The notes beneath the pieces are model-generated. The model was not told the DNA's origin. It was given only the letters and a program-made list of their open reading frames with translations, and ran no database searches. A DNA stretch of 64,000 bases from Agromyces allii. GTDB lineage: Bacteria; Actinomycetota; Actinomycetes; Actinomycetales; Microbacteriaceae. Made by a program: the position numbers and the translations under genes. Location of the stretch: positions 1 through 64,000 of the forward strand of contig NZ_WBIN01000002.1 of assembly GCF_009749385.1 (NCBI RefSeq). Reading direction: 5' to 3'. Shown here in pieces: positions 14,976 to 26,920 of the stretch. Within the stretch, counting starts at the first letter, position 1, and every line of letters begins with the position of its first letter.

Positions 14976-16513
14976 TGACCGTCGCCAGAACGCATGCGGT
15001 CGCCCTGCTCGGGCTCACGGGCTCGATCGTCGAGGTCGAGGCCGACCTGTCGGCCCAGCTTCCGGGCTTCTCGATCATCGGCCTGCCCGATGCCGCGCTC
15101 GGCGAGGCGCGTGAACGTGTGCGCGCCGCCGCCGTGAACGCCGGCTGCCCGCTGCCGCAGCGCAAGCTCACCGTGAACCTCTCGCCCGCGGCACTGCCGA
15201 AGCACGGCTCGGGGTTCGACCTGGCGATCGCGGTCGCCTGCCTCGCCGCTGCAGGCGAGGTGTCCGTCGAGTCCGTCGCCCGGGTCGTGCACCTCGGCGA
15301 GCTCGGCCTCGACGGTCGCCTGCGACCGATCGACGGCATCCTGCCCGCCGTGCTCGCGGCCGTCCGGGCGGGCCATCGGACGGTGATGGTGCCGAGGGCG
15401 AACGCCGACGAGGCAGGTCTCGTACCCGACGTGACGATCATCGGCGTGGTCTCGCTGCTCGACGCGGCGATCCACCACGGCGGCCGGTTCGACGCGCGCG
15501 AGGTCGATGCCGTTGCCTCGGTTCGCACCGAGCACCAGGGCATGGCGGAGGCATCCGGCGATCTCGCGGATGTCGCGGGCAACGCCGACGCGATCGACGC
15601 GCTGCTCGCGGCGGCCGCCGGTGGGCACCACCTCTCCATGATCGGCCCGCCGGGGGCGGGCAAGACCATGCTCGCGTCGCGGCTGCCAGGCATCCTGCCC
15701 GATCTCGACGCCGACGCGGCCCTCGAGGTGTCGTGCCTGCGCTCGCTCTCAGGGCAACAGGTCGGATCGGGCCTGTCGTTCCGGCCGCCGTTCGAGGCGC
15801 CGCACCACACCGCGACCGCCGCGGCCATGGTCGGCGGCGGCAGTCGGCTCATCCGACCGGGTGCCGCCGCGCGTGCATCGCACGGAGTGCTCTTCCTCGA
15901 CGAGGCGCCGGAGTTCCCGGCCGCGGTGCTCGACGTGCTCCGTCAGCCGCTCGAGTCGGGCACGATCAGCATCCATCGGGCGAACGCCGTCGCGAGCTTC
16001 CCCGCACGATTCCAGCTCGTGATCGCCGCGAATCCGTGCCCCTGCGGGCTCGACGGCACCGCAGAGTGCACGTGCCCGCCGAACACCAGGCGGCGATACC
16101 TCGCACGCATCTCGGGGCCGCTGCTCGATCGCATCGACCTGCAGCTCAAGGTGCCGCGACTGTCCGCGGCGCACCTTCGGGGTGCGAGCGACCGGCCGGG
16201 CATGACGAGCGCCGAGGCTCGGGCGAAGGTCGCCGAAGCGCGTGCGACCGCGGCCGAGCGGCTTCGAGGCACACCCTGGCGCACCAACGCGCAGATGCCC
16301 GGGCCGTGGCTTCGCGGCGCCGGACGGCTCCACCCCGGAGGGCACGCGACCGCCGCGCTCGATCGATCGCTCGAACGCGGCGGCATCACCATGCGCGGCT
16401 ACGATCGGGTGCTCAAGACCGCGTGGACCCTCGCCGACCTCGCCGGAGCGGCACGGCCCGATGCGGGACACATCGGCAACGCGCTCTTCTTCCGTCAGGG
16501 TTTCGGGCGATGA
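14975..16513 (+). CDS. comM: ComM/YifB family AAA+ helicase-like protein (Mg-chelatase-like)
   Basis: In naturally transformable bacteria ComM promotes branch migration during uptake-linked recombination. The 512-residue protein has the N-terminal ChlI-like domain (PGFSIIGLPDAAL, TVNLSPAALPK). The AAA+ Walker A GPPGAGKTML follows near residue 226, the Walker B LFLDEAPEFP comes next, and a C-terminal Mg-chelatase domain with an ANPCPCG cysteine cluster ends it. It overlaps dprA by 4 nt, so yraN, comM and dprA form one operon. The downstream gene is interrupted here, but comM itself is intact. Confidence 0.93.
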   Translation: MTVARTHAVALLGLTGSIVEVEADLSAQLPGFSIIGLPDAALGEARERVRAAAVNAGCPLPQRKLTVNLSPAALPKHGSGFDLAIAVACLAAAGEVSVESVARVVHLGELGLDGRLRPIDGILPAVLAAVRAGHRTVMVPRANADEAGLVPDVTIIGVVSLLDAAIHHGGRFDAREVDAVASVRTEHQGMAEASGDLADVAGNADAIDALLAAAAGGHHLSMIGPPGAGKTMLASRLPGILPDLDADAALEVSCLRSLSGQQVGSGLSFRPPFEAPHHTATAAAMVGGGSRLIRPGAAARASHGVLFLDEAPEFPAAVLDVLRQPLESGTISIHRANAVASFPARFQLVIAANPCPCGLDGTAECTCPPNTRRRYLARISGPLLDRIDLQLKVPRLSAAHLRGASDRPGMTSAEARAKVAEARATAAERLRGTPWRTNAQMPGPWLRGAGRLHPGGHATAALDRSLERGGITMRGYDRVLKTAWTLADLAGAARPDAGHIGNALFFRQGFGR

Positions 16514-17379
16514 GCGCCGTGGAGCGTGCCGAGCGGCACCTGCGTTCCGAGTTCGCGGCGGTCCGACCCGACCGCCCCGCGCGGCCCGATCGGGCGCCCG
16601 ATGAGCTGCTCGGGGGTGCCGCGCCCGTCGCGCCGGGCGCGCCGGTCTCCGAGACCGCGTCCGAAGCCGTCGCCGAGGTCGATGCATTCGCTCGGGCGAT
16701 CCTCGGAACACTCGCCGAACCCGGCGACGGCACGCTCGGGCGCCTCGTCGCCGTGCTCGGGACGGTGCGCACGGTCGATCTCCTGCTCGAGCGCGCACCC
16801 GTGGAACGGTTCATCGACGCGGTCGACGCCGCGGGGGAGCACCTGACGACGAACGACCTCGAGACAGCCCTCGCGAGGTGGACGCCGCGCATCGACCATC
16901 CGGCGTTCGTTCGCGGCCTCGCCCAGGCGGCGCGCGTCGACGCCACCTTCATCGTGCCGGGCGACGCCTGCTGGCCGGCTGGAGTCGACGACCTCGGCGC
17001 ACATGCGCCGCTCGGGCTCTGGGTCCGCGGCGACCCCGCGGTCCTTCGGCCCGCGCCGCCCGCGGTCGCCCTGGTGGGAGCGCGCGCCGCGACCGGGTAC
17101 GGCGAGCACGTGACCATGGAGATCTCGGCGGGGCTCGCCGACCGCGGGGTGACCGTCGTCTCCGGAGGCGCCTACGGCATCGACGGCATGGCGCACCGCG
17201 CGGCACTCGCGAGCGGCGGCACGACGATCGCGTTCCTCGCGGGCGGGGTCGACCGCTTCTACCCGGCCGGGCACGACGGGCTGCTGCAGCGCATCGCCGA
17301 GACCGGCGCGGTCGTGTCGGAGCTCCCGTGCGGCGCCTCGCCCACGAAGTGGCGCTTCCTGCAGCGGAATCCGCAATAA
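16510..17379 (+). pseudogene. dprA: dprA, 5' part, truncated by the integrated element
   Basis: DprA loads RecA onto incoming single-stranded DNA. This part encodes 289 residues: an N-terminal extension, a helical region, and most of the Rossmann-like core (VALVGARAATGYG, VVSGGAYGIDGMAH, GGVDRFYP, SELPCG). It then breaks at FLQRN, where two element-derived codons and TAA follow. The missing third of the gene lies 9 kb away at 26448-26920. Joining 17371 to 26448 gives a continuous 444-codon frame. The truncated protein lacks the end of the core and the winged-helix tail, so it is probably inactive until the element excises. Confidence 0.93.
17362..17371. other. attL core repeat CAGCGGAATC
   Basis: Ten-base direct repeat shared with 26438-26447. 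The left copy is in frame with dprA (Gln-Arg-Asn and the first base of the next codon). Element sequence starts at 17372. Confidence 0.85.
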
Positions 17380-17384
17380 GTGGG

Positions 17385-17555
17385 TCAGGCGCCGCCGCGT
17401 GTAAACGGGTCGGCGAGGCTTACCGCGCCATGCGCAGGGCAGACAAGAGCGACGCGGAGACTCGCGCGCTCGGGCAGGATCTCACGGTCGAGTTCGCCGC
17501 CGCATCTCGGGCAGAAGGGCCCTGAGGGGAGGCCGTCGGCGTCGATATCGCTCAT
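17385..17555 (-). CDS. Small zinc-ribbon protein (56 aa), element-encoded
   Basis: A 56-residue protein with two knuckles, FCPRCGG near residue 15 and VCPAHG near residue 40, a likely zinc ribbon of C-x2-C / C-x2-H type. The next gene upstream on the same strand ends 10 bp before it, so the two form a small operon that reads towards attL. The GGAGG in front of the ATG leaves only one base of spacing, so the start is uncertain. Function unknown; such ribbons in phage-like elements often bind DNA or act as small regulators. Confidence 0.55.
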   Translation of the reverse strand: MSDIDADGLPSGPFCPRCGGELDREILPERASLRVALVCPAHGAVSLADPFTRGGA

Positions 17556-17565
17556 GCCTCCGAGG

Positions 17566-17787
17566 CTATCCCGCGGTCGGCCCGCGGTGCGCGGCATCCC
17601 ACGCGAGCGCGCGGCGGACACCGACGAGCATCGCCTCGCGCGTCCCGGCGTTGACGAGATCGAGGTCGCCACGAATGACGCGAACCGGTGCGCTCGGGGA
17701 GACCTCGAACTCAACGACGAGTTCGCGGCCGTCCTCGGCGGTGAACTTGATCGCGACGCGCGCGAGCGCCGGGCGCGGTGAGCTCAT
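17566..17787 (-). CDS. Hypothetical 73-aa protein, element-encoded
   Basis: Predicted beta-rich N-terminal half (VAIKFTAEDGRELVVEFEVS) and a helical C terminus. I do not recognise a family. It is transcribed away from the 38-aa gene at 17938, with a palindrome CGCGTAA-N7-TTACGCG between them, and is followed 10 bp later by the zinc-ribbon gene. No clear ribosome site precedes the ATG. Coding is supported by codon pattern and tight spacing only. Confidence 0.5.
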   Translation of the reverse strand: MSSPRPALARVAIKFTAEDGRELVVEFEVSPSAPVRVIRGDLDLVNAGTREAMLVGVRRALAWDAAHRGPTAG

Positions 17788-17831
17788 GCGACGAGGATCG
17801 CACGGGCCGCCGACGTCGCCGTGAGCGGAGC

Positions 17832-17852
17832 CGCGTAAGAGCGTTTTACGCG
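17832..17852. promoter_or_regulatory. Palindrome CGCGTAA-N7-TTACGCG, candidate operator
   Basis: Perfect 7-bp arms in the divergent region between the genes at 17787 (minus) and 17938 (plus), ending 14 bp before a consensus -35 box. Its position suits a repressor or activator site controlling early genes of the element. No repressor gene could be identified. Confidence 0.45.
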
Positions 17853-17866
17853 ACCTGATCTGCGAT

Positions 17867-17895
17867 TTGACGCGGGGCGGGGTCGCGCTTAATAC
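17867..17895 (+). promoter_or_regulatory. Near-consensus promoter TTGACG-N17-TAATAC
   Basis: -35 TTGACG (17867-17872), exactly 17 bp, then -10 TAATAC (17890-17895). This is the best sigma-70-type promoter seen in the window. Expected start near 17902, about 35 nt before the 38-aa gene. Confidence 0.75.
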
Positions 17896-17937
17896 TGAGC
17901 TCGGCGCGGCCACACTGGCCGGTCAGGAGGGAACAAA

Positions 17938-18054
17938 ATGGACGACTTCGAGGGCGAGCTGAGCGCGTGGGCGATCGAGACGGACGCCGAGGGGCGCCGC
18001 CGAGCGGTCTGGGGCGACGGGTCGTATTCGTACTGCATCCCCGCCGCGGCGTGA
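17938..18054 (+). CDS. 38-aa microprotein with strong expression signals
   Basis: A short open frame with an AGGAGGG site 6 nt before its ATG, driven by the TTGACG/TAATAC promoter and closed by a terminator that begins two bases after its stop. The product is small, acidic at the N terminus (MDDFEGELSAWAIE), with three arginines in the middle, aromatic residues in the second half and a single cysteine. It has no membrane segment. No family is recognised. The isolated, strongly expressed single-gene unit suggests a regulator, antirepressor, excision factor or packaging/RM inhibitor, but none of these can be shown from sequence. Confidence 0.65.
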   Translation: MDDFEGELSAWAIETDAEGRRRAVWGDGSYSYCIPAAA

Positions 18055-18055
18055 G

Positions 18056-18092
18056 GCGAGGCCGGAACTAGGACTAGTAGCTCCGGCCTCGC
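18056..18092 (+). terminator. Hairpin terminator of the 38-aa gene
   Basis: Perfect 11-bp arms GCGAGGCCGGA and TCCGGCCTCGC around a 15-nt loop, starting two bases after the stop codon. Confidence 0.8.
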
Positions 18093-18102
18093 TCACAGGC
18101 TA

Positions 18103-18140
18103 CCGAGAGGCCTCCCGTATCCACGGACGGGGCCTCTCGG
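18103..18140. terminator. Second hairpin, CCGAGAGGCC / GGCCTCTCGG
   Basis: Perfect 10-bp arms around an 18-nt loop, 10 bp after the first terminator. Likely a tandem insulating terminator or a structured RNA end. Confidence 0.6.
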
Positions 18141-18307
18141 CGTCCGCGGCGCTCTGCGCCTCTCTGAGGCACGATCGCGGGCCGGACGGCCGACGATGCC
18201 TCGGACGACGTGAACGGCCGCGAGTGAGGCGCTCAGATTTAACTAGGGCCGGGCGGGGCCCCCGTGGGGAGCGGGAGCGCTCGGTTGAGGCGGGCTGAGT
18301 CCCGGCG

Positions 18308-18412
18308 GTGACGGAAGTGACGAAAGTTCCGTCACTTCCCTATTCTCCGCTTGAGAGAGAGACGCCTTAGAGGGGGAATGGTAAGTGACGGAACTTTCGT
18401 CACCTTCGTCAC
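18308..18412. repeat. Inverted repeat of 30-bp arms rich in GTGACG units
   Basis: Left arm 18308-18337 and right arm 18383-18412 are reverse complements with two mismatches, separated by 45 bp. Each arm contains two or three GTGACG/CGTCAC units, and its inner part is itself a dyad (GTGACG-N7-CGTCAC at 18318-18336). Iterated short motifs in a dyad are typical of replication origins, initiator-binding sites or phage operators. It sits upstream of the restriction-modification genes. Confidence 0.7.
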
Positions 18413-18528
18413 TCCGGCGGCCCGGGCCTCCTCCGCCCGGCGCTCGCGCGAGAAGCTGAGCGGGTGCCCGGGCCTCCCAGCTGGCGAGCCTGTCCGGTGG
18501 TGTCGTCGGTCGCATCTAGGGTGAGAGA

Positions 18529-20199
18529 GTGAAGCTACTTCCCGGCGATTCTGCTGACCTCCGTAAGGCGCGCGGAGCGTTCTTCACGCCGCCCGCGATT
18601 GCGGAGCACTTGGCTGAATGGGCGATTCGTGGCGACGCCGAGGCAAGCATCCTCGACCCGACGTGCGGGGAAGCAGTCTTCCTGATTGCGGCAGGCCAGG
18701 AGCTGAAGCGACTCGGTCGAACGGCAGGGGATCTCGATCGGCAGCTCTACGGAGTGGACCTACACGAGGGGTCGCTGGTTGAAGCGTCCGCCCTTCTCGA
18801 AGAGGAAGAGCTCGACGGGACGTTGATAGCGTCTGACTTCTTCGCGGTGAAAACGCCGGACATGCTCGATGCGCCGCTCCCATTCGTGGATGCCGTGATT
18901 GGCAACCCTCCGTTCGTCCGCTATCAGGAGCATGTCGGCTTGTCTCGACGGCTCTCCGTCGAGGCGGCGCTCCGGCAGGGCGTCCGCCTGAGCGGGCTTG
19001 CGTCGTCGTGGGCGGCAAGTCTGGTTCACTCGGCGGGCTTCCTGAAACCGGACGGCCGACTCGCAATGGTGCTTCCGGCCGAGTTGCTGACTGTCGGGTA
19101 TGCCGAACCCATCCGCGCGTGGCTTCGGTCACGGTTTGAGCGCGTCAGCCTCGTTCTGTTCGAGCGGCTCCAGTTCGAAGATGCGCTTGCGGACGTCGTG
19201 CTTCTGCTCGCCGAAGGGCGCGGCGGGTGCGATGCCTTCTCGCTCTATCACGTCGAGTCGTCGGAGGATCTCGCGCAGATCCGGCCGTACATGCACACGA
19301 ACGTCACGCCTCCGACTTCCGGGAAGTGGACGGACATTCTCGTTCCGAAGAAGCAGCGTGGTCTTTACCGCGAGGTCGTGACGAATCACTTCACGGCGCT
19401 CGGAGATTACGGGCGGATCGAACTCGGAGCGGTGACCGGTGCGAACTCGTTCTTCGCGATCTCCGAAGAGACGAGGAGCGAGTATGGCCTAACCGAGGAG
19501 CAGCTCGTCCGGATTAGCCCGCCGGGCACTCGCCACTTCCGGTCAGCGAACTTCACCGCGAAGGACTGGGTTGAGCTTCGTGATCGCGGTGAGCGCGTGT
19601 GGTTGTTCCGTCCTGACGCGAGAGACGATTCCGAGGCGCGCCAGTCGTACACGGCTCACGGCGAGGCGCAAGGCGTCGATCAGGCGTACAAATGCCAGAT
19701 TCGTTCGCCGTGGTGGCGTCCCCCGGTTGCAGCTCCGCCGGACCTCTTCTTTACCTACATGAGCCACAATTACCCGCGACTCATTACGAACTCGGCCAAG
19801 GTTGGCTTCCTCAACTCAATGCACGGCCTACGCATGAATTCGTTCGCGCCGGGTGAGGCGGCGGCGGCGCTCCCGCTGCTATGTCTGAACTCGGCGACGA
19901 TGCTGGGTGCTGAAATCAACGGACGTTCATACGGCGGCGGAATCCTCAAAATGGAGCCTCGGGAGGCGGCGTCTCTTCCTGTCCCCGGCCCAGAGATTCT
20001 CGCCGCAGCGTGGGCCGAGCTGAAGCCGATTAAGGCGAAGCTGGATCGTCAACTCGCGGCGGGCGAATGGACTGAGGTAGCAAAGCGCGTCGACGCCGCG
20101 GTCCTCGGCACGGGTGCCGGACTCGCCGAGCAAGAGATCGCCGAGCTACTGGAGGCGGCGCGGCAATTGCGCTCGCGACGCATGAGCCGTGGAGAATAA
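18529..20199 (+). CDS. N6-adenine DNA methyltransferase (restriction-modification)
   Basis: Predicted to methylate adenine in a specific DNA site and so protect the element and its host from the adjacent endonuclease. The 556-residue protein has the S-adenosylmethionine motif DPTCG (residues 43-47) and catalytic motif IV NPPF (126-129), in the gamma-class order, followed by a long C-terminal region that probably recognises the target. GTG start; TAGGGT lies 6 nt before it, so the mRNA is probably leaderless. The stop is 6 bp before the endonuclease GTG. Codon use is visibly less GC-biased than in host genes. Target sequence unknown. Confidence 0.88.
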   Translation: MKLLPGDSADLRKARGAFFTPPAIAEHLAEWAIRGDAEASILDPTCGEAVFLIAAGQELKRLGRTAGDLDRQLYGVDLHEGSLVEASALLEEEELDGTLIASDFFAVKTPDMLDAPLPFVDAVIGNPPFVRYQEHVGLSRRLSVEAALRQGVRLSGLASSWAASLVHSAGFLKPDGRLAMVLPAELLTVGYAEPIRAWLRSRFERVSLVLFERLQFEDALADVVLLLAEGRGGCDAFSLYHVESSEDLAQIRPYMHTNVTPPTSGKWTDILVPKKQRGLYREVVTNHFTALGDYGRIELGAVTGANSFFAISEETRSEYGLTEEQLVRISPPGTRHFRSANFTAKDWVELRDRGERVWLFRPDARDDSEARQSYTAHGEAQGVDQAYKCQIRSPWWRPPVAAPPDLFFTYMSHNYPRLITNSAKVGFLNSMHGLRMNSFAPGEAAAALPLLCLNSATMLGAEINGRSYGGGILKMEPREAASLPVPGPEILAAAWAELKPIKAKLDRQLAAGEWTEVAKRVDAAVLGTGAGLAEQEIAELLEAARQLRSRRMSRGE

Positions 20200-20205
20200 G
20201 CATTC

Positions 20206-21216
20206 GTGACCGATATCGCACTTGACGACGCCGCCGAGTCAGCCTCTGAGGCGACCGATCCCAGGAAGGCATCCCGCGACCCAGCCGATCAGGCGCGCGT
20301 CGAAGCCCTCGTCGGAAGTCCGGTCGAGAAGCTGCTGAAACTCAAGGAGCGCATTCAGAATGAGAATGTGCGCCAGTTTCGCGTAGTCGAGGTTGACTTC
20401 CTCGATCTGCTCTGGTCGATGGACATGTATCGTCGCGAGCATGTGATCCCGCGGACCCCTCGCAGCGTTGACGGCAAGGTCGACAAGGACGAGACAGGCG
20501 AGGGACTCTATCGAAGCAAGGGCAATTGGTTCTCGGAGATCATGGCTCTGATCCTCGGCAACAAGACGACGAGCAAGCTCGCCCCGAGGAGCCGAGTCAA
20601 GGGCTTCTCTCAGGAGCATCAGATCGACATTGCATGGCCGGACCGGGGAACAACGGTCCTCAGGGACCCCTTGATTTGTTGCGAGGCGAAGCTCACCGGT
20701 GCGCCGGGGGTGAAGGGTGGTAAGCCGCGCGGCGGACTCGCGGATTGGTCGAATCGGCGTAAGGAGCTCAAGTTCCAGGCGACCGATCTCAAGCTTGCGC
20801 GGCACGAGGCGAGCACAAGCATCCATCATTGGAATGCATGGCGGAAGAAGGCCGATCCTCGCGTCTTCACGCTCTGGGCGGCGCGCCTCGAAGACACCTC
20901 CGGCAAGGGCGAGGAGTCGAAGCAGTACAAGCGCATGATCCGTGAGGCACAGAACTTGACAGCGACCTATTCAGACGGGGTCGGCATCTATGCGTTCAAG
21001 GCGGACGATACCGCTGGGCGCTACGTCCCTGTGTCTGTGGCCGTCGACGCCGCTGGTCGGGTTACGACGCTTGACGAGGTTCTCGACGAGATCGCGGGTG
21101 AGATCAAGGAACGCATGGAGGAGCACGGGAACCGAGTGCCGCCGGCTCGGTCCGCGAGTCCCTCTTCGCGGATCGATCCGGAGGACGAGGGACCCGAGCG
21201 CCTCACGCTGATCTAG
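20206..21216 (+). CDS. Putative type II restriction endonuclease, PD-(D/E)xK fold
   Basis: A 336-residue protein directly behind the methyltransferase. Candidate catalytic residues are E111 (in NWFSEIMALIL), D141 (EHQIDIAW) and E160-x-K162 (LICCEAKLTG), which together fit the PD-(D/E)xK nuclease core. I recognise no specific endonuclease family, so the name rests on motif plus position. GTG start, with GGAG 11 nt upstream. The second half is Lys/Arg-rich and may bind DNA. It is followed by a strong terminator. If active, the pair would act as an addiction module that stabilises the element and as defence against other phages. Confidence 0.7.
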   Translation: MTDIALDDAAESASEATDPRKASRDPADQARVEALVGSPVEKLLKLKERIQNENVRQFRVVEVDFLDLLWSMDMYRREHVIPRTPRSVDGKVDKDETGEGLYRSKGNWFSEIMALILGNKTTSKLAPRSRVKGFSQEHQIDIAWPDRGTTVLRDPLICCEAKLTGAPGVKGGKPRGGLADWSNRRKELKFQATDLKLARHEASTSIHHWNAWRKKADPRVFTLWAARLEDTSGKGEESKQYKRMIREAQNLTATYSDGVGIYAFKADDTAGRYVPVSVAVDAAGRVTTLDEVLDEIAGEIKERMEEHGNRVPPARSASPSSRIDPEDEGPERLTLI

Positions 21217-21230
21217 CGTAGAAACGACAA

Positions 21231-21263
21231 AACGGCCCCGCTTCGGAGTGAAGCGGGGCCGTT
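21231..21263. terminator. Intrinsic terminator after the endonuclease gene
   Basis: Perfect 14-bp arms AACGGCCCCGCTTC and GAAGCGGGGCCGTT with a 5-nt loop, followed by CTGT. It lies between convergent genes and should work in both directions. Confidence 0.9.
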
Positions 21264-21286
21264 CTGTAGAGGCATTTAGGTTACGT

Positions 21287-21610
21287 TCACGTCACGCCGA
21301 ACGCACGAATGGCACGGGGAACGGCGTTAGAAATCGTTGAGGAGAGTCGCCAGTAGTTTCGCGATCCGGCGGAGCTCCCGCGTGTCGTAAGCGGCAGTGT
21401 CAGGAAGTAGTCGGCCGCAAAGCGGCGTGCGCGGGTCAGGGTCGGGTCGCGCCCGGCCGCGAGCACGGCCGCGCCGCAAACGCCGAGCTCGGCGACCTCG
21501 CGTGCGTCGAGCCTGAGCACCACACCGCGGACGGCGGCCTCGGCGGCAGTGAGGGAACTCCAGCCTTCGCCCGCGTGATCGACGAGGCCGCGGGCGATGC
21601 GTCGCGCCAT
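21287..21610 (-). CDS. Hypothetical protein downstream of small terminase; possible frameshift near the end
   Basis: A 107-residue frame whose ATG is 2 nt after the terS stop, so the genes are probably translated together. The first 70 residues look coding (AAEAAVRGVVLRLDAREVAELGV, then ARRFAADYFL). After residue 71 this frame becomes Ser/Thr/Arg-rich, whereas the -1 frame continues as a sensible helix (YDTRELRRIAKLLATLL) and stops at 21327. That could mean a programmed or accidental -1 frameshift near 21400, but no obvious slippery heptamer is present. No known family. Confidence 0.5.
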   Translation of the reverse strand: MARRIARGLVDHAGEGWSSLTAAEAAVRGVVLRLDAREVAELGVCGAAVLAAGRDPTLTRARRFAADYFLTLPLTTRGSSAGSRNYWRLSSTISNAVPRAIRAFGVT

Positions 21611-21612
21611 GC

Positions 21613-21951
21613 TCAGGCTGCCGGGAGGCCGTAGGAGCCGCGAGCACGGCCTCGGCGCTGGGGACGAGCGTCGTTCTCGTCGGGGATCCGCAGCGAGGCT
21701 AGGAGGCGCGAGAGGGCGACGCCCTGAGCCCTCGCCTCGACGAGGGCCGGATGGGCTTTTACGCCTTGTGGCGAGCTCACGGTGACCCCTTCAGCACAGA
21801 CGACAGCGTTCAGCGCGTCGAGACGATCGCGCACGCGGCAGGCTTCCAGGAGGAGCGCCGTCTCGTGAACGTCGAAGACGACGAAGTCGGTCAGCTCCTC
21901 CCAGAGCGCCGAGCCAGATGCGCCGAGATCGGCGGGCGTTGGCGTGGACAT
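21613..21951 (-). CDS. Phage terminase small subunit, P27-type
   Basis: A 112-residue protein resembling P27-family small terminases. The run GASGSALWEELTDF, ELTDFVVFDVHETALLLEACR with DRLDALN, and the stretch GVTVSSPQGVKAHPALVEAR with LASLRIP at the end fit the family. In a phage it selects the DNA to be packaged and recruits the large subunit. No large terminase is present, so the product would have to redirect a helper phage's enzyme, as described for other phage satellites. AGGA lies 10 nt before the ATG. It is followed by the 107-aa gene. Confidence 0.78.
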   Translation of the reverse strand: MSTPTPADLGASGSALWEELTDFVVFDVHETALLLEACRVRDRLDALNAVVCAEGVTVSSPQGVKAHPALVEARAQGVALSRLLASLRIPDENDARPQRRGRARGSYGLPAA

Positions 21952-22105
21952 AGGAGGTCGTTCCTTTCGGGTAGGTCGATTCGTTTCAGATCAGGCTCGG
22001 CCTGTGGCGCTATGCCTCTCCGAGCTAGAAGGGAGGGGCGGGAGGGGGGTCCTCCCCACGCCTCGCCGGAACTGAAGGGACAGCGGCAGTCGATATGGTC
22101 ATCGC

Positions 22106-22558
22106 ATGGCGTGGCTTACAGTGCTCGGGATCCTCGTTGAGGGCATCGGCCTCTTCCTCGCGGGGCGCGCGCTGCTCCGCGTATGGCGGGACGTTGCCGA
22201 CGGACGGTCGTTGCTAACGAACCGGAGCAAGACGAACTCCGCGGCAGTGTCCGGCACAGTCGGCCGCGTCCGGTCGCACGTCTATGCGCGGGTCGGTAGC
22301 GCAAACGAGACGACCGAGGAAGCCGTCATTGCTATTCGCTCGGAGCTGGATGCGATCTACCGGCGTCTCGACTTGGAGGCGGACACCCGGCAGGACGCAG
22401 ACGAGGCCCTGCGCCACGACGTTGACGCTCTGGGCCGCGCCGAGGACGCGAGGGAGCGGGACAAGGCGCGCGAGGATACCCGTGCGGCTGCGCTTGGCCT
22501 CTTTTGGGCGGTCGGCGGAATCTTGTTGCAACTGCTCGGCGGAGTTCTTGGCCTGTAA
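22106..22558 (+). CDS. Small membrane protein with coiled-coil middle, element-encoded
   Basis: A 150-residue protein with an N-terminal hydrophobic segment (residues about 3-25), a long charged helical middle rich in Arg, Asp and Glu (about 65-125), and a C-terminal hydrophobic segment (about 128-148). The two-anchor layout resembles some holin or phage-exclusion proteins, but no family is recognised. It is probably leaderless: TATGGT lies 6 nt before the ATG. It runs against the surrounding minus-strand genes and is followed 12 bp later by another plus-strand gene. Confidence 0.65.
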   Translation: MAWLTVLGILVEGIGLFLAGRALLRVWRDVADGRSLLTNRSKTNSAAVSGTVGRVRSHVYARVGSANETTEEAVIAIRSELDAIYRRLDLEADTRQDADEALRHDVDALGRAEDARERDKAREDTRAAALGLFWAVGGILLQLLGGVLGL

Positions 22559-22570
22559 GGGGCGTTTCGA

Positions 22571-22789
22571 TTGGCGGATCGCATGATCGACCGCGCGGAG
22601 ATCCGCCGACGGATCGCGTCTCACGCCCCCGAGGAGCCGCTGAAGGTCAGCGCCCAGCGAGCCGCCTTCGAGGCGCTCAGCGAGGCGCAGGCGGCCGGAG
22701 CGCCGGGGTCCGTGAAGGCGGGCCTCCTCGTCGCGTATGCGGAGGAGTATCGCGTCCTCGCCGAGGAGCTCGCCGAGCTGAGCGACTAG
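22571..22789 (+). CDS. Hypothetical 72-aa helical protein
   Basis: An alanine/glutamate-rich, probably all-helical protein. The TTG at 22571 has AAGGGG 8 nt upstream and is preferred; an ATG at 22583 is the alternative. It overlaps by 4 bp, tail to tail, with the minus-strand gene ending at 22786. Probably co-transcribed with the membrane-protein gene before it. Function unknown. Confidence 0.6.
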   Translation: MADRMIDRAEIRRRIASHAPEEPLKVSAQRAAFEALSEAQAAGAPGSVKAGLLVAYAEEYRVLAEELAELSD

Positions 22790-23133
22790 GCAGAGGCGGG
22801 GCGCTTGTCGGCGCGCCGCATCGTGATCTCGTTGAAGGCCGCGGATGCACTGGAATCCGCGGGGGAGTCGAGTCCGACGATTCCTCGGCGACGTCGGTCC
22901 AGGACTGTTTCGACGGCCCGCTCGACGCGCGCGTCCGACCGGAGCTCAGTTCGCGCGGCCGACTGCGCCGAACGCACGACGGCGAGCGCCGCGGTCAAGG
23001 AGAGGCCCTCACGCTTCGCGAAGGTTTCGAGGCGGTCGCGGGTCGCCTCGTCGAGGCGGTCGACCGAAGGCGGGAGAGCGGCGGCCTCGACGGCGGCGCG
23101 GACGAGGGCAGAGAGACGGCGAGAGCGGGGCAT
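22786..23133 (-). CDS. Hypothetical 115-aa protein, element-encoded
   Basis: Arginine- and alanine-rich, mostly helical. The segment RLDEATRDRLETFAKREGLSL in the first half resembles a ribbon-helix-helix type or short DNA-binding region, but this is not a confident match. The ATG at 23131-23133 has AGGA 8 nt upstream. It is the last gene of a minus-strand run of capsid, 54-aa zinc protein and this gene. A longer upstream frame exists but would read through the zinc-protein gene in another frame and is rejected. Confidence 0.6.
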   Translation of the reverse strand: MPRSRRLSALVRAAVEAAALPPSVDRLDEATRDRLETFAKREGLSLTAALAVVRSAQSAARTELRSDARVERAVETVLDRRRRGIVGLDSPADSSASAAFNEITMRRADKRPASA

Positions 23134-23186
23134 CGTATGTCCTTTCGGGACGGAGAGAGGTCTGGGTCGTCGACGAGCTGGAGCGT

Positions 23187-23351
23187 CTACACGCCCTCGA
23201 AGAACGCGGCGGCCGCCAGCATGCGGGCGGAACGATCGCGAGCTCGGAACGCGGCCCGGCGACAAACTGGGCCGCAGGCCGTCGCGTAGGCGTTCGCGGC
23301 GGTGAAGGGGAATCGGCAGTTCGAGCACGTAAGGACGTGAGTCGCGGCCAT
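23187..23351 (-). CDS. 54-aa zinc-finger protein
   Basis: A small frame with GGAGG 4 nt before its ATG. The product contains LTCSNCRFPF near residue 9 and TACGPVCRRAAF near residue 26: a C-x2-C followed by C-x3-C pattern that should bind one zinc ion, then a basic helix. It resembles short phage zinc-finger proteins that recognise nucleic acid. It lies 80 bp downstream of the capsid gene and 53 bp upstream of the 115-aa gene on the same strand, so it belongs to the late operon. Function unknown. Confidence 0.65.
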   Translation of the reverse strand: MAATHVLTCSNCRFPFTAANAYATACGPVCRRAAFRARDRSARMLAAAAFFEGV

Positions 23352-23431
23352 GAGGCCTCCAAGACAGATCAGGGACGGGGAGGGGGCCCGCTCAGCTCTG
23401 AGAGCGTGAGCGGGCCCGAATGGTGAGCGGC

Positions 23432-24325
23432 TCAGGCCGCGGTGTCGACGCGGACCGCGCCGCCGTGCGGCACGAGCTCGACGACGCCGTTCTCGCGGTC
23501 GACCGCGAGGGGCATCGGCGCGACGGCGACGAGGGCCTCGACGATTGAGCGGTCCGAGCCGGTCGCGACGTCGAACGCCTGAATGTGCGTCAGCGCGAAG
23601 GGCGAGTCTCCCTCGGCGCGGACGCTCGCCGCGTAGGGCGCACCGGCTGGGGGCTCGGGAGCGCGCACGACGAGCGAGAAGGCCTCCTTCACGAAGGCGA
23701 CTACGTTGTCCGCCGGGACCCGGCTCGACTCGTGGATCTCGATCCCGCGGACGGTCGTCCCGTTCGAGTCGAAGCCCGAGCCGACAGGGGCGTCGAGGAT
23801 GTCCGCGTAGACCGAGGAGCCCACGACGGCAACGATCTTCGACTCGGCGTCGACGCCGCGATCACGGAGGGTCTTCCGAAGCTGAGTAAACAGCTTCGCC
23901 GGGGTCGCGGCGGTGTATGCCAGCGTCGTCGCCGGAGTGGCGAGAAGCGCGGCGGCGGCCTCAGTCTCGACCTTTCGGGTCACCGAGCGTGTCTGAGGGT
24001 AGAGGACCTGCTTCGCGAAATCGACGAGGTTCAGCTCCGCATCGGCGACTGAGATCGCGACGTTGCTGTAGGCGAGAGTCGAGAGCTCAACCGAGATGCT
24101 CTGCTCGGAAATCGTGTCGACAGCAAGCGGCGTGGTCGTGTCATCCGCGGCGCGCTCGCGCGAAGGTACAGCGCCGGGAACGCGGACGCGGATCGTCTCG
24201 CCCTTGCCGCCGCCGAAGTCGGCCGCGACATCGCGGCTGAAGAGATTAGAGAGGCCGAGGTCGGCTCCGACAAGCTTCGCGCCGATCGTCGCGATCTCGT
24301 CAGCGGTGAGGATGGTGTTAGGCAT
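23432..24325 (-). CDS. Major capsid protein, P22 coat-like
   Basis: A 297-residue protein with the features of P22 coat-type capsid proteins: the N-terminal LGLSNLFSRDVAADFGGGKGETIRV region, the SVELSTLAYSNVAISVADAEL segment, repeated beta-rich insertions, and the late LTHIQAFDVATGSD motif. AGGAGA lies 4 nt before the ATG. It is the only virion structural gene recognised in the element: no portal, scaffold, protease or tail gene is nearby. It may form small capsids in which element DNA is packaged with helper-phage proteins. The fold call is good; the packaging role is inference. Confidence 0.8.
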   Translation of the reverse strand: MPNTILTADEIATIGAKLVGADLGLSNLFSRDVAADFGGGKGETIRVRVPGAVPSRERAADDTTTPLAVDTISEQSISVELSTLAYSNVAISVADAELNLVDFAKQVLYPQTRSVTRKVETEAAAALLATPATTLAYTAATPAKLFTQLRKTLRDRGVDAESKIVAVVGSSVYADILDAPVGSGFDSNGTTVRGIEIHESSRVPADNVVAFVKEAFSLVVRAPEPPAGAPYAASVRAEGDSPFALTHIQAFDVATGSDRSIVEALVAVAPMPLAVDRENGVVELVPHGGAVRVDTAA

Positions 24326-24777
24326 GGGCTCTCCTGAATGGTGAGGGTTGAGTGGTGGAGTCCCGTCGCATCTATGCGGACCTCGGCCGATCCCGGAGCC
24401 TGCCGGTCGGCGTCAGTCGATGGGAAGCGCTCCGGTAGCCGAACCGCGGCCCGTTGCCTGAACGGGTGCGAGAAGGCGTGACGAAGCGCCGCGCCGAGGA
24501 GATCCTCGGCGGACCGTCGGCAGCGTCGCGATAGGCGCGAGCAGGACGGGAGCAAAGTGAGGCGGGCCCCATCGCTCGCGACAGGAGCACGAGCGACGGG
24601 GCCGCCGGGCGGCGTCCCGTCGACCACAGAAGGGACGCCGCGGGGTGCGAGCTGGGGCCGTTGAAAGGGGACGGTCGCAGCTCGCGGAGGCGCGGCATGA
24701 TGGCCGCGGGGCGGAAGAAACGTGCGCCTCTTGGGCACATATGCATAGAGGCCTGCCGGGGTCAGACATTGGTCACA

Positions 24778-24889
24778 GGGCCTCTGAAGTAGGAGAGGGC
24801 CAGCACTGTTTACATATGGGGCCTCTGTAGAAGAAGAGGGCCGACGGCGGGAGACATCCGTCACAGGGCCTTTGTAGAAGAAGAGGGCC
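24778..24889. repeat. Three 24-bp direct repeats, each a bulged hairpin
   Basis: Copies at 24778-24801, 24819-24842 and 24866-24889 follow GGGCCTnTGnAGnAGnAGAGGGCC, at steps of 41 and 47 bp. Each copy can pair GGCC-TCT with AGA-GGCC, leaving one bulged G. Copies 1 and 3 are also preceded by ACATnnGTCACA. The spacers are too few and too unequal for a CRISPR array. Candidate roles: protein-binding sites, a packaging (pac/cos) signal, or structured RNA in the late transcript. Confidence 0.7.
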
Positions 24890-24908
24890 AGCGGCACGGT
24901 ACGACGAA

Positions 24909-24937
24909 GCCCCTCGCCGAGAACACTCGGGAGGGGC
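24909..24937 (-). terminator. Terminator of the serine recombinase gene
   Basis: Arms GCCCCTCGCCGAG and CTCGGGAGGGGC pair with one bulged base around the loop AACA, about 23 nt past the recombinase stop on the minus strand. Confidence 0.7.
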
Positions 24938-24959
24938 CAGGAGACGGGCGCGAGAGCGG

Positions 24960-26417
24960 TCAGCCGACGTCGGCGAGTTCCTCGTCGAGCCCCAACGTCG
25001 CGGCGTCGACGTAATCGGGGTTGAGGCGGGTCGCCGCAAGGTGCCAGACCTCGACGCGACGAGCGTCCCGGCCGGGGTGAACCGTGACGTCGAGAAGGGC
25101 GCGGACTACCTCGCGCTGACGGTCGAGCTCCAGCGCCGCGAAGCGGGACGCGACCGCGTCGACCATGTCGGCGTAGGCGGACATCGAGAACGACGACGGG
25201 ACGCCCGCGAGGGCCTCCCGCGCTGCTTCGGCGAGGACGGCGGACGCCGAACGGTCCGAGCGGGCGGCCTCGATATCCGCTTCGATCGCCTCGCGCTGGG
25301 AGCGGAGTTCGACGAGACGCTCGCGGGCCGCAGCTGCCGGGAGGAGGCCCTCGTCGCGATCCTCGACGGTTGCCTTCGCCGCGGCCTCGTTCCGGGTCAG
25401 GGCTTCGACGAGCGGAGCGATCCGGCGGCTTGGCGCCGACTCGCCGCCGACGGCGTCGCCGAGCTCAAGGAAGGCCCGAGCGACCTCACGCCGGAGCCGG
25501 GTGTCGAGGCGGTCCTTCGTGATCGTCGGGTGGGAAGAATCGAGCTTGCATCGGTACGCGCCCGCGAGGTTCATCAGGAAGGCGGCGCAGTCCGGCGCGC
25601 CGCACGCCGCGATGCCCGAGCCAAGGTGCCTCGGGGTCGGGCCCGGCGTCGTGCGGCGGCTCTCGTCTGCGAGCACGGCCCGCGCCTCGGCGGCGAGTTC
25701 AGGGTCGACGATCGCGGCGACGACATCCGAGGGGGTGGCTTCGCCCTTCCGCACGACGTAGCCGCCATACGTTGGGTTCTGGACGATGTAGCGGACGCGG
25801 CCGGTCGACCATGAGCGGCCGGGCGCCGGGTCGACGCCCTCGTTCCTTAGCGCGAGAGCGATCGACCGGATCGAACCGCCGTCAGCGATATGCGCGAACA
25901 TGCGACGCACTACGGCCGCTTCGGACTCGCGAGCGGTAATTCCGTCGGACTCGTAGCCGTACCGGCGGCGTCCGGGCGTGGGGCGGCCCGTGCTCGCTCG
26001 ATACTCATTCGCTCGCTTCTGGCGCTCGCCCTTGCGCCGGACCTCGAATCGGGCGATCGCCGCGAGCATCGTCGCTCGGAATTCTCCGTCTGCGGTCGTG
26101 AGGTCGATCTCGCCGTCGACGGTGAGCACTCGGACGCCGAGGTCGATCAGTGTCCCGATATCTTGGATCGAGCGGACGAGGCGATCGACGTCGATCCCGA
26201 CGACGACGTTGACGCGGCGGGTCGAGATCTCGTCGAGGAGATCGGCCCATCGAGTCGAGGCTCGGGACTTGGAGGCGCTGACGTCGTTGTCTTTGAACGT
26301 GTCGACGAGGGTCCAGCCGCGGGCCTCTACGAGGCGCTCGCACCTAGCTACGGCCCGGTCGATACCCTCGGCGTGATTGACGGACTGACGTACGTAGATC
26401 GCGGCACGAAGGGTCAT
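24960..26417 (-). CDS. Large serine recombinase (site-specific integrase)
   Basis: Catalyses integration, and with a directionality factor excision, of the element at dprA. The 485-residue protein has an N-terminal resolvase domain (residues 5-140) with the nucleophile S12 in YVRQS, a recombinase domain (about 150-250), and a zinc ribbon with C272, C277 and C290. A coiled-coil stretch (about 335-400) and a DNA-binding tail complete it. The length is at the short end for the class. The ATG is probably leaderless, with TAGGCT 6 nt upstream. The gene starts only 20 bp from attR, so its promoter spans the junction. No excisionase/directionality gene was identified. Confidence 0.93.
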   Translation of the reverse strand: MTLRAAIYVRQSVNHAEGIDRAVARCERLVEARGWTLVDTFKDNDVSASKSRASTRWADLLDEISTRRVNVVVGIDVDRLVRSIQDIGTLIDLGVRVLTVDGEIDLTTADGEFRATMLAAIARFEVRRKGERQKRANEYRASTGRPTPGRRRYGYESDGITARESEAAVVRRMFAHIADGGSIRSIALALRNEGVDPAPGRSWSTGRVRYIVQNPTYGGYVVRKGEATPSDVVAAIVDPELAAEARAVLADESRRTTPGPTPRHLGSGIAACGAPDCAAFLMNLAGAYRCKLDSSHPTITKDRLDTRLRREVARAFLELGDAVGGESAPSRRIAPLVEALTRNEAAAKATVEDRDEGLLPAAAARERLVELRSQREAIEADIEAARSDRSASAVLAEAAREALAGVPSSFSMSAYADMVDAVASRFAALELDRQREVVRALLDVTVHPGRDARRVEVWHLAATRLNPDYVDAATLGLDEELADVG

Positions 26418-26423
26418 GTACTT

Positions 26424-26453
26424 AGCCTAGGTTCTGACAGCGGAATCGGTTGA
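26424..26453 (-). promoter_or_regulatory. Recombinase promoter spanning attR
   Basis: The -10 TAGGCT is at 26424-26429. In the integrated state the hexamer 17 bp upstream is CAACCG, which lies mostly in host dprA DNA. In the excised circle, the left end of the element would supply TTGCGG at the same spacing. The promoter should therefore be stronger in the circular form. Confidence 0.6.
26438..26447. other. attR core repeat CAGCGGAATC
   Basis: Right copy of the 10-base repeat at 17362-17371. After it, host dprA resumes in frame as GGTTGATCGCC. The reconstructed attB reads Phe-Leu-Gln-Arg-Asn-Arg-Leu-Ile-Ala, a highly conserved DprA stretch. Confidence 0.85.
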
Positions 26454-26920
26454 TCGCCGCCGCGAGCGACGCCACCGTCGTCCTCGAGGCCGGGGCTCGG
26501 TCGGGCTCGCTCAACACCGCGAGCCATGCCGCGACCCTCGGACGCCCGCTCGGGGCGTTGCCCGGTCCGGTCACGAGTCCCGCATCGGCCGGCTGCCACC
26601 GCCTGCTTCGGGAGTTCGACGCCGTGTGCGTCGTGAACGCCGATCAGGTGGTCGAGCTGATCGGCCGGGTCGAAACCGGGGGCGGTTCCGAGACCGCGGC
26701 AGGCGGCGGCCGAGCGGCTTCCGCCCCGCAGGCCACGCCCGAGGAGGTTCGGGTGCTCGACGCGCTCAGCACACGCGCGCCGCGCGACGTCGCAGACCTC
26801 GCGCGTCGCGCCGGCCTCGGCGCCGGTGAGGTCATGGCGGTGCTCGGGGTGCTCCAACTCGACGACGTCGTGGCGTACCGCGTCGACGGATGGGTCCGCC
26901 GTCGTCGACGGGCGACGTGA
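26448..26920 (+). pseudogene. dprA: dprA, 3' part, separated by the element
   Basis: Continues the dprA frame from attR: LIAAASDATVVLEAGARSGSLNTA (end of the Rossmann-like core), GALPGPVTSPASAGCHRLL, a variable Gly/Ala linker, and a C-terminal winged helix (APRDVADLARRAGLGAGEVMAVLGVLQLDDVV). There is no start codon or ribosome site of its own at the junction, so it is probably not translated alone. No frameshift or stop has accumulated, which argues for recent insertion or regular excision. Confidence 0.92.

Follow-up and report, generated by a model that had tools for sequence, protein, structure and literature searches.

Mobile elements inside competence genes are already known (PMC4774983, 2016; PMC11472951, 2024; PMC12637031, 2025), among them a Listeria prophage in comK, which PMC4774983 mentions. 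In the portions of these papers that we draw on, the targets are comYC, comFA, comK, comM, radC, ssbB and comEC, without dprA, and the hosts are not actinobacteria; dprA occurs twice in PMC4774983, both times in the reference list. The target genes of large serine recombinases (LSRs) are strongly enriched in DNA competence genes (PMC10083194, 2022), and the passages concerned give a Mg-chelatase/protease homologue, which we read as the comM type, as the target of 12.4% of site-specific LSRs; dprA is absent from the main text of that paper, and its supplement may list it. We set PMC5341023 aside as a precedent, since the part concerned describes dprA carried on an island and not an insertion into dprA. 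Phage satellites are the other point of comparison. The Mycobacterium candidate PICIs, described together with phiRv1 and phiRv2 (PMC10654092), are small islands with an integrase and a major capsid protein, and some candidates use serine integrases; they occupy other integration sites, and the passages concerned name no competence-gene target. The PLE satellites of Vibrio cholerae, compared here by description only, likewise use an LSR, and the sections concerned offer a model in which a factor encoded by a phage directs excision (PMC6002521).

We analyzed a stretch of 64,000 nucleotides from Agromyces allii (the window), in which a 9,076-bp insertion splits dprA at the codons of its RNR-LIA motif (Table 1). 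The original prediction had described an LSR element that breaks dprA and could restore it by precise excision, and its structural part was borne out. The reading frame is broken after FLQRN, runs on for PQ and a stop, and resumes in frame at 26438; the same repeat is present at both junctions; the LSR gene starts 20 bp inside the right repeat; and the neighboring comM is intact. Joining the flanks by script gave an uninterrupted DprA of 444 aa, and the separated 3' part bears no sign of decay, again as claimed. A PF02481 profile search of the 4.36-Mb genome returned 2 matches, both of them halves of the split gene, and no second dprA copy. When the arms of ten dprA elements were rebuilt, 9 of the 10 arms on either side had CA where crossover is presumed to occur, with the caveat that the pattern anchoring the attR side itself starts C[AG]; the exchanged segment is probably CA alone, and the remainder of the 10-bp repeat would reflect half-site resemblance. 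The attP arms are conserved among the dprA elements. The element thus lies within the coding sequence of a transformation gene, as the published disruptors do in the passages concerned, and exact rejoining would give back the whole gene, a property shared with the integrase-driven element in Listeria comK.

Table 1. Features of the split dprA locus and of the element (window coordinates).
Feature	Position	Strand	Evidence or remark
comM (Mg-chelatase-like), 512 aa	14975..16513	+	intact; interrupted in some relatives
dprA N-terminal part	16510..17379	+	PF02481 positions 4-149, E 4.1e-42
attL, CAGCGGAATC	17362..17371	+	crossover probably CA at 17362-17363
small ORF, 73 aa	17566..17787	-	script gene model; longer frame 17566-17913 without match in Pfam, PHROG and PADLOC scans
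long inverted repeat, GTGACG/CGTCAC type	18309..18412		read from sequence
type II DNA methyltransferase (Eco57I-like)	18529..20199	+	PADLOC PDLC03301 E 2.9e-122; Pfam M_Eco57I_C E 2.2e-13
type II restriction enzyme, 336 aa	20206..21216	+	PADLOC PDLC03576 E 9.5e-13; no Pfam match
ORF, 107 aa	21287..21610	-	no match in Pfam, PHROG and PADLOC scans
terminase small subunit (TerS), 112 aa	21613..21951	-	phrog_1496 E 7.8e-18
ORF, 150 aa, membrane-like by eye	22106..22558	+	no match below E 0.1
small ORF, 68 aa	22583..22789	+	L170 counterpart: 45% over 62 aa, E 5e-06
small ORF, 115 aa	22786..23133	-	gene model; longer frame without firm match
small zinc-ribbon-like frame	23135..23360	-	counterparts in L003, L170, L191 (E 4e-05 to 1e-04)
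phage major head (capsid) protein, 297 aa	23432..24325	-	phrog_283 E 1.8e-28
three 30-bp direct repeats, iteron-like	24778..24895		spacing 41 and 47 bp
large serine recombinase (LSR), 485 aa	24960..26417	-	Pfam Resolvase + Recombinase; phrog_95 E 5.9e-66
attR, CAGCGGAATC	26438..26447	+	crossover probably CA at 26438-26439
dprA C-terminal part	26438..26920	+	PF02481 positions 142-207; open to stop

Judged by its sequence, the recombinase belongs to the LSR class, with Resolvase and Recombinase domains, the catalytic serine and the zinc-ribbon ligands all present. Residues Y8, R10, S12, D78, R79 and R82, as well as C272, C277, C290 and H296, are invariant in all 9 aligned LSRs, and the catalytic motifs look intact. 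The gene models come from a caller trained on 11 chosen genes of the window, which leaves the small ORFs uncertain; a self-trained caller was replaced because it had chosen antisense frames. The head protein compares at about 40% with actinophage head proteins, and a TerS copy with 70-73% identity is found in a related element (L116). Several small proteins conserved between elements have no functional name in PHROGs. An AlphaFold2 model of the head protein (4 rows) was uninformative, with a mean pLDDT of 38.3. Around the genes, the long inverted repeat is a possible control or origin region, with similar arms in L114, L006 and L005, and iteron-like arrays occupy the corresponding position in L003, L170 and L117. 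An Rfam match of the inverted repeat to MIR8670 was discarded, as it fell far under the gathering score.

With an integrase and a capsid gene, the element has what characterizes a candidate PICI as defined in the literature, and it adds TerS and a restriction-modification system to what the passages concerned describe for the Mycobacterium candidates. Its head and packaging set consists of the head protein and TerS alone, which places it outside the capsid-forming PICIs, which we take to be those with a head and packaging set of their own (portal, protease and large terminase). None of these 3 genes, and no tail or lysis gene, was found in the 9,076-bp element among the 9 of 12 gene models that were scanned, all but three small ones. 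A lone head protein is insufficient for a capsid. The head protein, TerS and the restriction-modification genes had not figured in the original prediction.

The same site is used well beyond this strain. Comparison with related dprA genes, which the original prediction had proposed as a check, showed the gene to be contiguous across these codons in 28 of 30 Agromyces loci (fetched out of 75 listed); the two exceptions are Agromyces allii itself and a second Agromyces (G438), which has an element at the same site with an LSR 61% identical. In 13 further genome loci, an LSR of the same radiation lies directly against one half of a dprA gene that is split at these codons, and in 10 of them both halves are present, about 7.6-10.8 kb apart. 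The hosts include Agromyces, Arthrobacter, Glutamicibacter, Curtobacterium and other Microbacteriaceae, so that an orthologous gene is interrupted by related integrases in other species, as in the published disruptors described in the passages concerned. For split dprA genes in the family sample, we claim a link to the LSR radiation only among the matches listed, not for every such gene. IMG/VR contigs add to this picture: L223 has an LSR, a head protein and TerS beside a dprA end, L224 contains both dprA halves, and L228 and L231 are further cases of dprA use. Defence-type genes occur in 7 of the 8 relatives scanned and mostly differ between them, a cargo comparable to the defence systems that the passages concerned report in Acinetobacter comM insertions. 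The head protein was detected in only 5 of 14 dprA elements. A single-sequence search of viral contigs found no relatives of it; an alignment search gave at least 32 matches, and among the matches listed only L191 was close over its length.

With dprA included, transformation genes are targeted by 32 of 43 members of the radiation (dprA 14; comM 13, at three sites; tadA 2; comEC 1; flp 1; and, probably, the tadC 3' end beside flp 1), a fraction whose members are not independent, because the loci were chosen for similarity to an integrase found in dprA, and targets are inherited among related LSRs. The remaining 11 comprise 6 at the ychF 3' end and 5 at other or undetermined sites. The comM and tadC 3'-end insertions may spare function; in one genome comM and dprA are both interrupted. 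Counted by site, this single radiation accounts for at least 8 classes, spread over five or six genes that belong to the same pathway; it spans pilus, channel and processing genes, and its elements occur in ten named genera and several others. Four control genes near dprA (rnhB, xerD, a phosphoesterase gene and rpsB) adjoined 0 of 99 LSR flanks, and 49 MVELV-type and 8 other LSRs gave no match to the gene set compared with LSR flanks. A rough binomial gave P of 1.4e-15 to 2.5e-4 at 0.5% to 14% per site class; when the classes were merged so that four of ten counted, P was 1.4e-7 to 3.1e-5. In both cases, the per-class chances are assumptions and the site classes are not independent draws. Moreover, a 9-kb contig with a head protein 50% identical sits between two parts of tadA, and its LSR is a distant one that shares the PHROG and has no BLAST match to the LSR of the dprA element. 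Head-protein matches do not support placing the comM elements in the same satellite group, since among genome LSR loci they were confined to the dprA LSR clade.

In Micrococcus luteus, deletion of comEC abolishes transformation and Flp pili belong to the transformation apparatus, according to the sections concerned (PMC4322843). Agromyces allii retains, besides comM, comEC, a comEA-like gene and a Tad/Flp pilus cluster. With the conserved DprA domain cut, DprA function would be lost, and natural transformation with it, or at least strongly reduced. We consider it reasonably likely that this is a phage-satellite-like integrative element that uses a conserved attB in dprA and disables transformation to its own benefit: the insertion probably shields it from deletion by recombination with imported DNA. 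That members of one LSR radiation sit in dprA, comM, comEC and Tad-pilus genes alike suggests that an element gains when the gene it occupies is knocked out. Such an element could be mobilized by a helper phage through TerS, with its own head protein either forming the capsid or modifying it, and its excision would be steered by some factor, perhaps supplied by the helper. That suggestion resembles the PLE model, although host and cargo differ and a phage-supplied directionality factor is hypothetical here. Restoration of dprA would then be confined mainly to cells that the element is leaving during a phage attack and to the occasional cured cell, and would not be a host programme.

The last point bears on the proposal that excision turns DNA processing back on when the host needs it, as for the comK prophage of Listeria. 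Site-specific insertion, clean rejoinable flanks, intact LSR motifs, an undecayed dprA 3' part and the retention of other uptake genes all agree with such a switch, and this much of the proposal stands; the same features are expected from a recent insertion, however, and the regulated or reversible excision that it also requires did not find support. The comK element is a full prophage with regulated excision (active lysogeny), whereas the 9-kb element is known from its sequence. Directionality factors are small and diverse, so that failure to recognize one says little. Part of PMC12637031 argues that an element lodged in a coding gene for competence would act against its own interest by excising reversibly. 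A host-controlled switch is thus unsupported, the wider target pattern favors a gain to the element, and we think a regulated competence switch very improbable. To a decaying prophage remnant, by now immobile and without effect beyond the broken gene, we attach equally little credence. The few phage genes, the head-protein match of L003 spread over two adjoining reading frames, and fairly high head-protein pN/pS values in more distant pairs (0.56-0.76) would suit it; against this, dN is below dS in the closest pairs, for the head protein with L115 (0.149 and 0.632) and for TerS with L116, attP arms are conserved, size and LSR placement are alike across divergent hosts, and defence-type cargo varies.

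A neutral landing site is a more serious rival, which we nevertheless regard as unlikely. LSRs would settle on conserved, insertion-tolerant DNA. Competence genes occur widely, contain short conserved motifs and can be dispensed with, and for these reasons they would collect elements that gain nothing from the loss of transformation. The dprA site does fall on a strongly conserved motif, related LSRs sit at the conserved 3' end of ychF, apparently harmlessly, and many distant LSRs converge on single conserved genes such as that for a prolyl isomerase, as stated in the passages concerned of PMC10083194. Such convergence accounts less well for a radiation with so many site classes in one pathway, for the low binomial P under the assumed chances, or for a contig with a similar head protein reaching tadA through a distant LSR.

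We return to the satellite-like reading, which in its broader form we advance tentatively, as something that may or may not hold. One LSR radiation, on small satellites and some temperate-type phages of Actinomycetota, would have moved its target repeatedly along the transformation pathway (Flp pilin, Tad ATPase, ComEC, DprA, ComM) because transformation is an active and widespread means by which these hosts delete integrated elements, with dprA as a main landing site; defence cargo would bar rival DNA while the dprA break prevents curing, and at least one similar satellite would have got there with a distant recombinase. That elements with kindred integrases lie in dprA and four or five other DNA-uptake genes suggests that they disable natural transformation. 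Insertion into dprA, and so wide a range of targets for a single radiation, both look new. They add dprA to the list of targets and connect it with phage-satellite-like elements whose defence-type cargo is exchangeable. Very few actinobacteria have been examined for natural transformation; if the pilus, channel and processing genes of the pathway are hit again and again in ten named genera and several others, transformation is probably active across soil actinobacteria and costly to the elements, and the insertion sites would point to genes that matter for it. The system offers a testable case of the conflict hypothesis, in which transformation serves to remove parasites, and the LSRs with their att sites are candidate genetic tools for these hosts.

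Two phages of 45-47 kb carry LSRs that fall inside the dprA LSR clade, Arthrobacter phage Soondubu (51% identity) and Microbacterium phage UtzChips (42.5%). For UtzChips, the site beside the integrase was the best match for 2 of 6 attP and tied for 1, a weaker result than for Soondubu, where, within the 13.4 kb scanned, an attP-like site beside the integrase came out first for all 4 Arthrobacter-type attP, although for one of them its lead over the best-matching site away from the integrase was just two bases. Integration into dprA is predicted for both.

In the window, dprA overlaps the end of comM, stops reading after FLQRN and returns in frame at the far side of the element (Table). The repeat CAGCGGAATC is present at both junctions, and joining the flanks by script yields 444 aa; the original prediction of a frame broken at FLQRN and resumed in frame, of the same repeat at both junctions and of a 444-codon rejoined gene is thus borne out. 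Across the whole host genome, PF02481 matched the two dprA halves only, in two parts (positions 4-149 and 142-207 of 212), so that the conserved DprA domain itself is cut. The separated 3' part had been predicted to be undamaged, and this also holds: against 5 intact relatives it gave dN values of 0.16-0.25 and pN/pS values of 0.29-0.40, inside the control range of 0.22-0.43 for the 10 pairs among those relatives, and thus shows no decay, as either a recent or an excisable insertion would give. The host genome keeps ComEC and a Tad cluster with flp (gene names read from order and similarity), as well as a ComEA-like gene that scores under the curated cut-off but adjoins comEC.

Comparison with related strains, proposed together with the original prediction, revealed many empty sites. 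The C-terminal part of dprA found matches in 58 of 60 Agromyces genomes, and 28 of the 30 dprA loci fetched (of 75 rows listed) were uninterrupted across the junction codons and lacked the element. The two split loci are those of the window and of genome G438, whose element (~9.5 kb) shares 61% identity with the window in its LSR and 48% in its head protein. In a family sample of 398 genomes, a dprA-family match was present in 388; LSR matches reaching E 1e-40 or better were present in 27, seven of which have an LSR adjoining a dprA half.

Coordinates of features in the window and in loci with related LSRs or head proteins (L-numbers)
Locus	Position	Feature
Window	16510	Start of dprA
Window	17362	Repeat, first copy
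Window	26438	Repeat, second copy; dprA back in frame
Window	~18309-18412	Long TGACG/CGTCA-rich inverted repeat, intergenic
L114	13287-13388	As above
L006	12521-12647	As above
L005	11995-12115	As above
Window	24778-24895	Direct repeats between LSR and next gene
L003	11022-11296	As above
L170	4419-4483	As above
L117	5532-5604	As above
L139	3741-4001	tRNA-3'-end-like stretch between tadA fragment and LSR start (by eye)
L115	12235-13230	No PADLOC match
L004	12778-13992	No Pfam match

The flanks of 99 LSRs were compared with 15 genes, giving a match in 32 and none in 67; the control genes rnhB, xerD, phosphoesterase and rpsB had no match in any of the 99. Setting apart 49 LSRs of a distinct type (MVELV) and 8 of other types, the remaining 42 form, with that of the window, a radiation of 43. 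Their targets are dprA (14), comM (13; at residues ~84 in one, ~308 in six and ~480 in six), the tadA ATPase (2), comEC (1), flp (1, L134, one side only seen), the 3' end of tadC next to an intact flp (1, L011, assigned by eye on 17 residues, one side only seen) and the ychF 3' end (6: L018, L019, L082, L123, L129 and L132; one by BLAST, five by reading terminal codons), with another or unassigned target in five (L014, L038, L065, L073 and L124). The comEC case (L185 and L138, ~16.0 kb) showed both gene halves, as did the two tadA cases (~16.3 and 16.8 kb) and six of the 13 comM cases (L012, L013, L017, with its short 3' part identified by eye, L078, L131 and L115 at its second LSR), the remaining comM members being seen from one side. 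Genome G025 (L115, L175) carries two elements side by side, splitting comM by ~13.1 kb and dprA by ~9.2 kb. Four of the six members at ychF have an intact copy of that gene at the far end, and LSR elements at this conserved 3' end apparently leave the gene unbroken. Mapped on the tree, the site classes number 14 (five being single other or unassigned rows) and require 13 changes, which is the minimum; neither the dprA nor the ychF members form one clade (3 changes each), and L134 and L138 are long branches of unsure placement.

Binomial probabilities for 8 of 14 site classes falling in the pathway were 1.4e-15, 8.9e-8 and 2.5e-4 at an assumed 0.5%, 5% and 14% per class, and 1.4e-7 (0.5%) to 3.1e-5 (2%) once classes are merged into 4 of 10; they are a guide only, because site classes are not independent draws, similarity to a dprA integrase decided which loci were included, and conserved genes are more likely targets.

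An IMG/VR contig, L191, lies between two tadA parts, and these join near the residues that L136 and L139 target; its head protein is 50% identical to that of the window, it has a head-tail adaptor match, and its LSR is of the same PHROG family as the window LSR, yet without a BLAST match to it. The MVELV-type LSRs (47 among L015-L081, plus L120 and L125) come from many actinobacterial genera, have very similar N-termini and, in the full-length cases, share ~36-37% identity with the window LSR; their flanks matched none of the tested genes.

The 14 elements at the same dprA codons, window counted, come from family genomes and a GTDB contig scan (80 of 83 relatives kept), repeats removed. Core-to-core size is ~7.6-10.8 kb in 11 of them (9,076 bp in the window; elsewhere the distance between alignment ends). 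G328 (~17.0 kb) and Frigoribacterium faeni (L009/L118 with L172, 18.1 kb) are larger, the latter reversed, with the LSR beside the N-terminal dprA half; L008 was seen from one end. Head proteins occur in five (window, L003, L114, L115, L170) and a TerS like that of the window in two (window, L116). The 35 IMG/VR LSR loci examined add L223, L224, L228 and L231 at dprA; L226 appears to be the F. faeni element once more. L223 (7.1 kb, metagenome) combines LSR, head protein and TerS with a dprA end, and is likely a relative of the window element.

Cargo was scanned with PADLOC (ten proteins, 7 relatives) and Pfam (nine of the ten, with one more from an eighth relative), leaving out L003, L116, L008, L009 and L119; a PADLOC match is a similarity, a predicted function at most. 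Matches were GmrSD_N/NsnA in L114 (with a HEPN-like neighbour just under the cut-off), an N6 methyltransferase and Hypoth_Ymh in L115, PDC-S59 in L117 (PADLOC only), an N6/N4 methyltransferase with an Mrr-like part in L170, a PD-T4-6 or mad6 type protein kinase in L005, Hypoth_Ymh in L006 (PADLOC matches weak) and a CAP12/Pycsar TIR in L007.

In attachment arms rebuilt from ten dprA elements, the presumed crossover reads CA in 9 of 10, on the left and on the right alike; L004 is out of register. Several Microbacteriaceae elements have inverted arms of the ACTTA/TAAGT type. The LSRs of phages Soondubu and UtzChips both fall inside the dprA LSR clade. In Soondubu (13.4 kb scanned), the integrase-adjacent site was the best position for all four Arthrobacter-type attP strings, with 34, 34 and 32 of 56 bases matched, or 27 for out-of-register L004, against 25-29 at the best position elsewhere. 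In UtzChips (7.5 kb scanned), it was best for two of six attP, tied for one, third for one and outside the top three for two. We predict dprA as the integration site of both phages.

There is strong support that the LSR integrated the element at the attB of dprA. This would inactivate DprA because the conserved domain is cut, and natural transformation would presumably be lost in this host. The breadth of pathway targets suggests that the element gains by escaping removal, and the presence of a head protein and TerS suggests that a helper mobilises it. By analogy with PLE, a Vibrio cholerae phage satellite with an LSR (PMC6002521), we hypothesize that a phage-supplied factor signals excision.

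Mobile elements disrupt comYC, comFA, comK, comM and radC (PMC4774983, where the accessible text has dprA twice, both in the reference list), and LSR targets are enriched in competence genes, a Mg-chelatase homologue serving as target for 12.4% of site-specific LSRs (PMC10083194, with dprA absent from the main text as accessible; its tables may list it). Listings and passages, including those of PMC12637031, PMC11472951, PMC4322843, PMC6002521, PMC10654092, PMC10023795 and PMC5341023, yielded no description of an LSR element in dprA, most subscription papers and all supplements lying outside this scope. Competence-gene disruption by mobile elements and small islands with integrase and capsid gene are known kinds; within the scope searched, what is new is the dprA target, a multi-genus satellite-like group using it and one LSR radiation covering the pathway.

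Ten frames of the window element, covering 9 of 12 gene models, were scanned against three libraries. Five had named matches (Eco57I-type methyltransferase, restriction enzyme, TerS, phage major head protein and LSR), and five had none above curated cut-offs. Compared with 168 phage records, the head protein has its nearest counterparts in actinophages (~40%). Its dN and dS against L115 are 0.149 and 0.632, those of TerS against L116 are 0.239 and 1.266, and more distant head protein pairs have pN/pS of 0.56-0.76. The long inverted repeats (Table) are candidate origins or operators. The LSR-adjacent direct repeats, with 26-48 bp units spaced 39-50 bp and a common GGCCC-CTCCT-like motif (by eye), are possible replication iterons.
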